A DNA stretch of 64,000 nucleotides, from assembly GCF_000517625.1 (NCBI RefSeq), contig NZ_CP007055.1, positions 620,001 to 684,000 on the forward strand. Reading direction: 5' to 3'. Within the stretch, counting starts at the first letter, position 1. Each line of letters starts with the position of its first letter. Shown here piece after piece: positions 28,599 through 58,166 of the stretch. The DNA comes from Halostagnicola larsenii XH-48. GTDB lineage: Archaea; Halobacteriota; Halobacteria; Halobacteriales; Natrialbaceae. The translations under genes were made by a program, and so were the position numbers. Under the pieces are notes generated by a model, which saw only the letters and a program-made list of their open reading frames with translations, was not told the origin of the DNA and searched no databases.

Positions 28599-28673
28599 TA
28601 GCGGGAGGTAGATTTGAACTACCGGTCTGCGGGTTATGAGCCCGCCGGAATCTCCTGGCTATCCCATCCCGCT
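28599..28673 (-). tRNA. Initiator tRNA-Met (CAT)
   Basis: The - strand folds as a cloverleaf: acceptor AGCGGGA with TCCCGCT, anticodon stem GCGGG/CCCGC with the loop CTCATAA, and discriminator A. The anticodon CAT is at 28638-28636. The A1-U72 pair and three consecutive G-C pairs in the anticodon stem mark it as the initiator rather than the elongator. The 3' CCA is not encoded. No intron is present. Confidence 0.95.
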
Positions 28674-55111: not shown

Positions 55112-55466
55112 GCTCGCAGGGAGCACCTGATTCCCATCGGACGCGGGAGTAAAACCCCGGTATTGTCGACGCGAACACTCTCGAGTAGCCGAACGATAGG
55201 TTCTCACCTCGTCGTCCGTGGGGAGACACTACGAACGAATGGGCGCGACTAGCGTTCAGTATCCGCTCCTTTCGAGTCCGTCGCAACGAGACGATTCGCT
55301 ACCGATATCGCCCGTCACAACCCCGACACGACTGTACTAGAGCGATACTTCGTCTCGCATTCAGAAAGCTAATCAGTCGCAGTCTCCGTTGGGCACACAT
55401 GAACGGAGCGCTCTATGCACTCGCGGAACCCTCTCTCGAGCGGAGTTCTGGAGGCTCTCGAAACTG
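55112..55466. other. Promoter and leader region of the gene at 55467, with micro-ORF
   Basis: Apart from a 22-codon ORF at 55399-55467, I see nothing coding in this stretch. AAGCTAATC at about 55369-55377 is a plausible TATA box for the + strand. Confidence 0.5.
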
Positions 55467-55467
55467 A
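55399..55467 (+). CDS. Upstream micro-ORF of 22 codons overlapping the next start codon
   Basis: The ATG at 55399 lies about 25 bases after a TATA-like AAGCTAATC, so it could be read from a leaderless message. The peptide is MNGALYALAEPSLERSSGGS plus two more residues. It ends in TGATG, so its TGA shares a base with the start codon of the gene at 55467. GGAGG at 55451-55455, inside the micro-ORF, provides a Shine-Dalgarno for that gene. Confidence 0.35.
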   Translation: MNGALYALAEPSLERSSGGSRN

Positions 55468-56117
55468 TGGCGGGAGACCAAGACGGCTGGTCCGACGTGT
55501 ACCGGCTCCCCCAGTTCTTCGATCGGATCGACGACCAGCAGGCGGTCTCGATCCGGGACGCGGTCGACGAACTCGAGATCGACCTCGAGATGGATGTCGA
55601 CGGCGTCGTCTATCACGACCGGGGGATCCGGGTCCCCGGCTACGATGCGACCTTCATCCGCGAACCGGAGTCGGCCAGGGACGTTCCCGCCTTCAGCGTC
55701 CAACTCGACGCGGTCGGGCCCCGAAGCACCTGGGCCGTCTTCGACGCGTCGAAAGAGTGGGACGCGTACCTTCTCACCGCGGACGACGTCGCGGCGGTCG
55801 CCTGGGTGAGCGACGAGGAGTTCGCCTTCGAGGAGGCACGAAACTTCTCCTCGAAGGATACGGCAGTCGGCGCGGGTCGGTTCTCGTTCGGGATCTTCTT
55901 CTACGAATCCCTCGAATGGGACTCGCTGGCTTCCGAACTCGAGGGCACCGACTCGCCGGCGCTGTTACACCACGACGACGGGTCGACGTACTATCCACAG
56001 ACCCAGTCGGAGTTTTATCGGTACGTCGACTCCTCGCCGGATGAATTCCGTGAGAGCGGCGGCGGCGCGCCATCCTACCTCGGCGTGCTCGAACTCGAGG
56101 TAACGATCGACGACTAG
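55467..56117 (+). CDS. Haloarchaeal hypothetical protein
   Basis: This 216-residue acidic, probably globular protein has alternating alpha/beta character. It reads MAGDQDGWSDVYRLPQFFDRIDDQQAVSIRDAVDELEIDL at the start and ends VLELEVTIDD. No family is recognised and no signal or membrane helix is present. The start is chosen by the GGAGG Shine-Dalgarno 11 bases upstream and the overlapping micro-ORF. The frame open from 55389 would need a TTG. Confidence 0.7.
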   Translation: MAGDQDGWSDVYRLPQFFDRIDDQQAVSIRDAVDELEIDLEMDVDGVVYHDRGIRVPGYDATFIREPESARDVPAFSVQLDAVGPRSTWAVFDASKEWDAYLLTADDVAAVAWVSDEEFAFEEARNFSSKDTAVGAGRFSFGIFFYESLEWDSLASELEGTDSPALLHHDDGSTYYPQTQSEFYRYVDSSPDEFRESGGGAPSYLGVLELEVTIDD

Positions 56118-56504
56118 CGGAGCGGGGTACGTCCGTCATGCGTTACGTCCAATATGCGAATTTTACGCCGTAGAAAATAACATCCAGTCGACAACACGGT
56201 CAGTTCGCTCGGGCCAGGGGGGACCCGAGCGAGTCGGTGAACACGCGGACGACACACGGGGAATGTGTCGTCCCTGCGTGGTGAACGGGATGTGCGATCA
56301 CATTGTCGTTGTGGGGAGATGACAATGCTATCCGACAATCGTCGGCACTCGCTAATCCTGGTGGAGTGATTATAAATTTTATGCTCGACGTGTATGCGAA
56401 ATTCTGCTAGCACGTCGTAGTTCCAGACTCGACGCTCGAGCGAGTTGTCGTTCGATGGCTGGCTAAAATCGGATGACAGCGCTAGCGAGGGGGACGCCTG
56501 CCGT
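56118..56504. other. Gene-free gap with hairpin array, between a hypothetical gene and elp3
   Basis: The segment is 387 bases between convergent genes. It holds four successive inverted repeats (56203-56345), AT-rich flanks (ATTTTAC at 56159-56165 and TATAAATTTTAT at 56370-56381) and no acidic protein-coding frame. The 99-codon frame on the - strand (56114-56413) is basic and probably not real. Confidence 0.65.
56203..56345 (+). ncRNA. Candidate structured RNA: four consecutive hairpins
   Basis: Stem A is 56205-56213 with 56224-56232 (9 pairs, loop CCAGGGGGGA). Stem B is 56247-56256 with 56264-56273 (10 pairs, loop CGGGGAA), extended by CACGC/GCGTG (56242-56246 with 56276-56280) across a 2-base bulge. 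Stem C is 56301-56307 with 56321-56327 (7 pairs, extendable by wobble, loop GTGGGGA). Stem D is CCGAC/GTCGG (56332-56336 with 56341-56345). The wobble pairs that lengthen A and C exist only on the + strand, which favours that orientation. It could also be the 3' end of the upstream gene's message. Confidence 0.4.
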
Positions 56505-58166
56505 TCACAGCCGTTTGCTCACGTACGGCCCGTCCTGATGATAGCCGAGTTTGTTCCGGTAGTACTCTCGAGCGCCGATACCCGAGATGACGCTCACTTT
56601 GTCGAAGCCGGCGTCGGCGGCCAGCGATTCGGCCCGATTCATCAGCTTGCGGCCGTAGCCGCGATGTTGGTGTTGGTCCGTCTCGCCGTCCTCGCCCATC
56701 GTGACTTCCGAGCCGTAGACGTGCAGTTCCCTGACTAGCGCCGCGTTCTCGAGTTCGCCTCTGACGGGGTCGTTCGGGAATCGAAGCCGGCAGAAACCGA
56801 TCAGGAGGTCCTGTTCGAAGTCTTCGAAGCTGATGAAGTGTTCGGTCCCGCCGCTCGCCTCGTAGGTCATGACGTCGAGTTCGACCTGGTCGGGTTCGGC
56901 GTCGTTCATCCCGGCCTCGCGACAGCGGATACACTCACACTCCCAGCCGTGTTCGTCCATCCGCTTTCGCGCGAGTTGCCGGAGGTTCGACTTCCAGACG
57001 CCGGCGTCGATGTAGTCCGCCGGAATGTCCCGTTGGACCCGCTGGAGCCGCGTATAGCGCGGGATCATGTCCTTGATTTCGGCGACGAGTTCCGCGGCTT
57101 CCTCGTTGTCAAGCGGGTCGTACTCGCCTCTGTGCCACCAGTCGTAGGTCGCCGTCCCGCGGACGATCAGCGTCGGATATATCTTCAGGTAGTCGGGCTT
57201 CCACTGCTCCTGTTCGAAGATGCGCCGGAAGTCCTCAAGACACATCTCCCTGCTCATTCCCGGCTGGCCGGGCATCATGTGGAATCCGACCTTGAACGCC
57301 GCGTCCCGCAGTCGCTGGTTCGCCTCGATCGACTCCTGAACGCCGTGGCCGCGGTGCATCTCGCGGTTGATCCGCTCGTAGGTCGTCTGGACGCCGACCT
57401 CGACTTTCGTCCCGCCGAGGTCCAGCATCCGGTCGATCTGCTCGGGATCGCACCAGTCGGGTTTCGTCTCGAAGGTCGTCCCGATGTTCCGGATGTCGCC
57501 CGTCTCGTTTTCCGCGATGACGTCCTCGAGATACTTCCACTCGTACTCCTCGGGATCCTCCGCGAAGCTCACGCCCTGGGCGGGTTCGGGCTCCTTGTCC
57601 ACGTCGTAGTCGTTCATCGCCTCGAGCGCTCGCTTGACGAACCACTCCTGGTAGTCGTGGCTCCGGGCGGTCATCGTGCCGCCCATGAGGATCAACTCGA
57701 CCTTGTCGATCGGATGGCCGATCTCTCGCAACTGCTCGAGTCGAAGGGTAACCTGCCCGTAGGGGTCGTAGTCGTTTTGTACGCCGCGGGCGGCTGCTGG
57801 CTCCTCGCCCGTGTAGCTCTGGGAACTCGAGAACTCCGAGTCCGGACCGCCGGGACAGTACAGACACTTCCCGTGCGGGCAGCGCTCGGGCGAGGTCATG
57901 ATCGCCACCGGCGAGACGCCGGAGGCGGTTCGGACCGGTTTGCGCTGGAGGACCGATTCTAAGTCCTCGCGGTACTCCTGGGGAGCGTAATCTAGCAGCT
58001 CGGAGTTTTTGGGCACTTTCGGTGCCGAGTGCTCCGAGCAGGCCTCGAGTTTGGCCTTCTCGACCTCCTCGCGCTCGACCTCGCCGTTGATGATCCGCTC
58101 GACGAGCGTTTCACAGACCCGCTCGAACGCTTCGGTTTCGGTCGGGTCGGGCGTGTCGGTACTCAC
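56505..58166 (-). CDS. elp3: Elp3-type tRNA uridine-34 carboxymethyl-modifying enzyme
   Basis: This 553-residue radical SAM/acetyltransferase protein has CPHGKCLYC with Cys96, Cys101 and Cys104 for the [4Fe-4S] cluster. The C-terminal GNAT domain contains QHRGYGRKLMNRAESLAADAGF. It makes the cm5U precursor at wobble position 34. The start is a GTG at 58166 (VSTDTPDPTETEAFERV), as in haloarchaeal relatives. It is divergent from the Rieske gene with 131 bases between them. Confidence 0.95.
   Translation of the reverse strand: MSTDTPDPTETEAFERVCETLVERIINGEVEREEVEKAKLEACSEHSAPKVPKNSELLDYAPQEYREDLESVLQRKPVRTASGVSPVAIMTSPERCPHGKCLYCPGGPDSEFSSSQSYTGEEPAAARGVQNDYDPYGQVTLRLEQLREIGHPIDKVELILMGGTMTARSHDYQEWFVKRALEAMNDYDVDKEPEPAQGVSFAEDPEEYEWKYLEDVIAENETGDIRNIGTTFETKPDWCDPEQIDRMLDLGGTKVEVGVQTTYERINREMHRGHGVQESIEANQRLRDAAFKVGFHMMPGQPGMSREMCLEDFRRIFEQEQWKPDYLKIYPTLIVRGTATYDWWHRGEYDPLDNEEAAELVAEIKDMIPRYTRLQRVQRDIPADYIDAGVWKSNLRQLARKRMDEHGWECECIRCREAGMNDAEPDQVELDVMTYEASGGTEHFISFEDFEQDLLIGFCRLRFPNDPVRGELENAALVRELHVYGSEVTMGEDGETDQHQHRGYGRKLMNRAESLAADAGFDKVSVISGIGAREYYRNKLGYHQDGPYVSKRL

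Follow-up and report, generated by a model that had tools for sequence, protein, structure and literature searches.

The window analyzed here, a 64,000-nucleotide stretch of Halostagnicola larsenii XH-48 DNA, contains a gene-free gap between two convergent genes in which an earlier sequence-only reading had noted four hairpins, raising the question of whether they belong to a functional RNA, from which strand it would be read, and what its loops might do. All four hairpins could be located in the sequence and in its folds, following each other on the minus strand in the order hp1 (stem D), C, B and A, and their plus-strand loops are G-rich as described (Table 1). Comparison across genomes supports a near-constant promoter spacing, covarying stems, a defined polarity, unpaired C runs, synteny and a lack of coding capacity, and the element very probably is an independently encoded structured RNA with its own predicted promoter. 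Judged from this comparison, the hairpins form an RNA that is read from the minus strand, opposite to the one first suspected. The whole unit, promoter included, runs from ~56380 to ~56173; this extent, the minus-strand TATA element and the polarity go beyond the sequence-only reading. The upstream neighbor is presumably elp3, a name already given to it in that reading.

Table 1 Features of the hairpin locus, in positions of the window.
Feature	Position	Strand	Basis or remark
elp3	56505..58166	-	Upstream same-strand neighbor; open frame; stop at 56505
TATA element AAAATTTATA, predicted promoter of the RNA	56371..56380	-	Conserved position in homologues
Predicted small RNA, ~170 nt	56173..56347	-	R1 and R2 models; start inferred from TATA spacing, end from T-rich stretch
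hp1, 5' hairpin (stem D)	56332..56345	-	CCGAC-GAUU-GUCGG; 98.8% of cells paired, 56 copies
hp2 (hairpin C)	56300..56328	-	Loop with CUCCCC (plus-strand GGGGAG at 56313-56318)
Hairpin B	56242..56280	-	Loop with UUCCCC; fold
Hairpin A	56205..56232	-	Loop with a C run; folds
T-rich stretch TTATTTTC, candidate terminator	56173..56180	-	Read in the sequence
Hypothetical gene	55389-56117	+	Convergent neighbor on the far side of the gap

A DNA search recovered a syntenic copy in G001, which belongs to the same genus, along with weak matches in three further genomes (G101, G052 and G054). On the minus strand, these relatives show AAAATTTAT(A/G), followed after a spacer of 23-24 bases by a CCGAC....GUCGG hairpin and a second one whose loop is rich in C. 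The covariance model built from these four copies and the query (R1) matched 55 of the 125 genomes of the window's family, 50 of them outside the training set, in 9 of 29 genera and once per genome except for two matches in G027. When a model from these 56 matches (R2) was applied to 391 genomes of the class, 48 were matched at E values up to 0.01, of which 45 lie within the family; R2 added two diverged copies from a tenth genus (G110 and G113) that were accepted on inspection, giving 58 copies in total. Its matches in other families (G194, G263 and G265) have neither the TATA element nor C-loops, and all three were rejected. The training sets of R1 and R2 both contained the query, and a third model (R3), of the RNA without the promoter, was built without the query; its strong matches fell mostly on loci already found. 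Across the class genomes, neither R2 nor R3 gave an accepted copy outside the window's family. The genera carrying the RNA include Natrinema, Natronorubrum and Haloterrigena (with G101 taken as Natronorubrum bangense, G025 as Haloterrigena salina, G103 and G106 as Natronorubrum, and G076 as Natrinema versiforme), all of them genera of Natrialbaceae.

The position of the predicted promoter is nearly invariant. Counted from the first base of the TATA element, hp1 starts 34 bases downstream in 50 of the 58 copies and 33-35 bases downstream in 56; the two exceptions are g24 copies, which have a three-base loop and were missed by the search motif. This near-constant spacing places the expected start at hp1, and a TATA-like element at fixed spacing is what would be looked for in an independently transcribed archaeal sRNA. 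Toward the other end, 25 of 58 copies contain TTTT, and within the 230 bases scanned it always lies 125-170 bases past the predicted start.

Besides the TATA element, folding and the types of substitution within pairs bear on the strand. The minus strand folds better relative to shuffled sequences (z -4.22, 0 of 200 shuffles as good) than the plus strand (251 bases; z -2.48, 2 of 200 as good). In the 38 full-length copies, the 24 predicted pairs give 912 cells, which are not independent, given the relatedness of the genomes: 826 are Watson-Crick, 72 are G.U on the minus-strand RNA, 6 are A/C, 7 are other combinations and 1 is a gap. At least one G.U is present at 16 of the 24 pairs and an A/C at 4, and omitting the pair richest in G.U still leaves 48 G.U against 6 A/C. 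Since an RNA read from the plus strand would give the reverse pattern, the polarity is assigned to the minus strand.

The full-length alignment (A3) comprises 38 of the 58 copies; the 20 left out have 3' domains or scores too different to align (the query and its two same-genus copies, all nine copies from g19, two each from g3, g8 and g24, one from g18, and L089). In the relatives thus aligned, as the sequence-only reading had proposed to do for the gap, the stems are conserved, with double changes at 8 of the 24 pairs, most of them at columns 91-151 (12 sequences) and 117-133 (8 sequences). Most of the covariation is carried by the 3' stems. In the 5' module, for which the alignment of 56 copies was fitted to the model, the paired cells, the double-change cells and the covariation score were all higher than in any shuffle; the number of pairs with double changes was reached by 10 of 500 shuffles, and the number of pair types by 69 of 500. 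Within this alignment, hp2 has 94.4% of its cells paired and double changes at 3 of its 7 pairs. The mean fold energy of the 58 RNAs is -54.6 kcal/mol, compared with -38.7 kcal/mol in 580 shuffles. Conserved structure, covariation and the lack of a conserved open frame, the features expected of an archaeal sRNA, are thus found together.

The window's own copy and that of G001 represent a variant whose hairpins B and A are adjacent and take the place of a long stem enclosing hp3. With R3 the window's copy scores 35.0 bits, close to the 34.3 bits of a coding match that was rejected; what places it in the family is therefore the 5' module together with the promoter and synteny. G000 and G001 share 80-82% identity over the element, compared with 44% and 64% in the flanks. 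In hairpin B, three pairs are changed on both sides relative to G001 with pairing kept, as aligned by eye with a 2-base shift in one arm; hairpin A can be aligned in G001 and also in G004 (83% over 45 bases).

The genomic setting of the RNA is likewise conserved. Same-strand copies lying at most 4 kb downstream of elp3 account for 51 of the 58, and 48 of these lie within 500 bases; as the models contained no elp3 sequence, this synteny is independent support. The seven copies away from elp3 are six of genus g19, which have other neighbors in common, and the second copy in G027 (L090, G027:C2). The next gene after the RNA is not the same in all genera and often has a convergent orientation, as it does here; the conserved codirectional downstream gene expected behind a cis-acting leader or riboswitch was not found. 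In some copies, a codirectional gene, presumably TenA-like, begins ~310 bases past the TATA element. Proteins similar to that of the hypothetical gene at the far side of the gap are encoded near the RNA in other genera (L056 and L057), so the neighborhood is partly conserved on that side too.

Over half of the family genomes have no accepted copy. Of the 70 in which R1 found nothing, 59 were searched downstream of elp3 with filters off, again with no match; the remaining 11 include G110 and G113, which have the element. One same-genus genome (G002, locus L109) keeps elp3, the gap and the TATA element, and its sequence becomes unrelated shortly after the latter. Among the weak R3 matches, one in the genus of Natronorubrum bangense (L202, in G105) was kept as a decayed remnant, a piece of the 3' half with 58 of 82 positions identical, ~29 kb from elp3; G102 has a weak match at a similar distance from elp3. 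From the synteny, the absences and what is left in G002 and G105, the RNA looks to have been passed on together with elp3 and to have been lost repeatedly. Its absence in many relatives suggests an accessory regulator and not a housekeeping RNA.

Turning to the loops, we counted C runs in the first 135 bases of the 58 RNAs, with 580 shuffles as the control. Runs of at least four C number 2.69 per RNA and are unpaired in 93% of cases, against 1.73 and 62% in the shuffles, which corresponds to 2.5 unpaired runs per RNA compared with 1.08. Individual copies have 0 to 5 unpaired runs, mostly 2 or 3, and a single copy (L089) has none; a CCCC run in the hp2 region is present in 53 of 58. The run is preceded by U in 121 of 156 cases and followed by A in 98 of 156, and the loop motif is therefore approximately UCCCC(C)A. 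In 56 of 58 copies, the RNA contains either no ATG frame that closes inside it or one of a single codon. The sequence-only reading had also considered that C-rich loops on the minus strand might pair with Shine-Dalgarno sequences: the C-rich loops are indeed there, but the exact anti-Shine-Dalgarno CCUCC, the complement of GGAGG, is found in only 4 of 58 copies. Of the 58 copies, 10 contain GGGG and none contains GGAGG (GGA alone lay outside the count), and the unpaired runs are of C where a CsrB/RsmZ-type RNA would have GGA motifs in its loops. A search of 8 genomes for the 11-base complement of one conserved loop found no second site common to them: of 15 places, 8 are the RNA gene itself, and the other 7 are mutually dissimilar by blastn at the limits used. 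This argues against a single long-paired target and leaves either short pairing at multiple sites or a sponge.

As a plausible mechanism, the RNA's own TATA promoter would start a transcript of ~140-170 nt on the minus strand downstream of elp3. It would open directly with hp1; next would come a hairpin whose loop is of the UCCCC(C)A type, and then a 3' domain in which more stems carry C-rich loops, with the end near the U-rich stretch. The RNA might then act in trans, with its mostly two or three short C-rich loops contacting UGGGGA-like stretches of several mRNAs. We regard the pairing of the loops with G-rich mRNA stretches as tentative, with a chance slightly below even; the identity of the RNA and this mechanism, taken jointly, appear to us evenly balanced.

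Several other explanations of the locus have to be weighed against an independently encoded RNA. That the hairpins are the terminator or a 3'-UTR element of elp3, or the 5' leader of the downstream gene, would agree with their location just downstream of elp3 on the same strand and with the codirectional, presumably TenA-like gene behind some copies. However, the RNA has its own TATA element at near-constant spacing, the next gene varies and is often convergent, as here, nothing was matched downstream of elp3 in 59 family genomes, and the six g19 copies have other neighbors in common, all of which makes such a cis-element very improbable. The plus-strand RNA favored by the sequence-only reading, whose GGGGA loops would titrate a protein as a Csr-like decoy, draws on hairpins that fold on that strand too (z -2.48) and on loops that are G-rich there. 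Yet the TATA element and the T-runs lie on the minus strand, which also folds better relative to shuffles, and the 72 cells that are G.U on the minus strand would be A/C on the plus strand, as against 6 in the opposite sense; we thus give the plus-strand RNA scarcely any weight. Stems are frequent in GC-rich gaps, which is what a set of functionless chance palindromes would build on, but conservation across 10 genera, covariation, synteny and the promoter reduce this to the least credible explanation of all. The sequence-only reading had itself held that stems lacking conservation in relatives would indicate chance palindromes or a terminator cluster; their presence in 10 genera contradicts the former.

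The sponge deserves more consideration, but we still judge it unlikely. In this case, the repeated UCCCC(C)A loops would sequester a protein with a preference for C-rich single-stranded RNA, much as CsrB sequesters CsrA, although through a different motif and from the minus strand. A sponge is favored by the recurrence of the short core in differing structural contexts and numbers with variable surrounding bases, and by the lack of a shared extended complement elsewhere in the 8 genomes. On the other hand, these data point to no candidate protein, the number of motifs is low for a sponge, and conservation extends past the loops to hp1 and parts of the linker. More broadly, a haloarchaeal family of multi-loop C-rich regulators, serving either as a general binder of G stretches or as a sponge for a C-binding protein, seems possible but doubtful.

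Known RNAs offer partial parallels to the RNA described here. CsrB/RsmZ-type decoys consist of several hairpins that repeat one short unpaired motif, as does this RNA, but the motif here is C-rich instead of GGA and the repeats are few; CsrA is not expected in archaea. In staphylococcal RNAIII, the Rsa RNAs and Helicobacter RepG, C-rich loops pair with Shine-Dalgarno or G-rich regions. These RNAs share with ours the short unpaired C-rich loops on stable stems; they differ in belonging to another domain of life, whereas here exact CCUCC is confined to the 4 copies mentioned and the G-rich targets are putative. Haloarchaeal mRNAs are often leaderless, and another pairing site than the Shine-Dalgarno sequence would therefore be needed. 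If such a multi-loop regulator exists, whether as a binder of G stretches or as a sponge, archaea would have an equivalent of the Csr-type or C-loop sRNA control of bacteria that uses a motif of its own, UCCCC(C)A.

In a search of the window with Rfam release 15, only a tRNA at 28599-28673 reaches the gathering threshold, and eight homologous loci searched at E values up to 1 gave one mir-598 match, outside the element and at 28.2 bits compared with a threshold of 69. The Rfam search named in the sequence-only reading thus leaves the element without a match, and the suspicion of a structured non-coding RNA unlike known ones is borne out by conserved, covarying stems. It is a new RNA family of a known kind, the archaeal sRNAs, with an unusual loop motif. 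Archaeal sRNAs for which covariation across genera is known are few, and for most of them neither targets nor protein partners have been described; for the RNA here, promoter, boundaries and strand are predicted and the loop motif recurs. Its presence in Natrinema, Natronorubrum and Haloterrigena makes deletion and pull-down feasible, and the natural absences inside one genus are ready-made comparisons. The literature searched contained no description of the RNA; an unrecognized earlier record is possible because PMC7002113 reports conserved, unnamed sRNAs of Halobacteria. Like the RNA here, sRNA132 and s479 of Haloferax volcanii are intergenic small RNA genes in a haloarchaeon; the opening lines of their abstracts do not mention repeated UCCCC(C)A loops, and the RNA here has no accepted match outside the window's own family.

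Searches beyond these genomes and the weak R3 matches gave a few minor observations. Neither the plasmid and phage records nor, for an exact pattern, the viral contigs gave a match. In genome contigs, the same exact pattern occurred in 21 stretches, 13 with haloarchaeal titles and 8 with bacterial ones, the latter taken as chance. Thirteen weak R3 matches (L190-L202) were read, and all but the G105 remnant were rejected as coding or chance, several of them lying in what is presumably the phosphate permease gene pstA. At L192, L193, L194 and L196, a coding stretch in a gene that looks to us like a phosphate permease carries GCCGGCGATCGTCGGCAC, which is almost identical to the hp1 palindrome and draws weak matches to the model.
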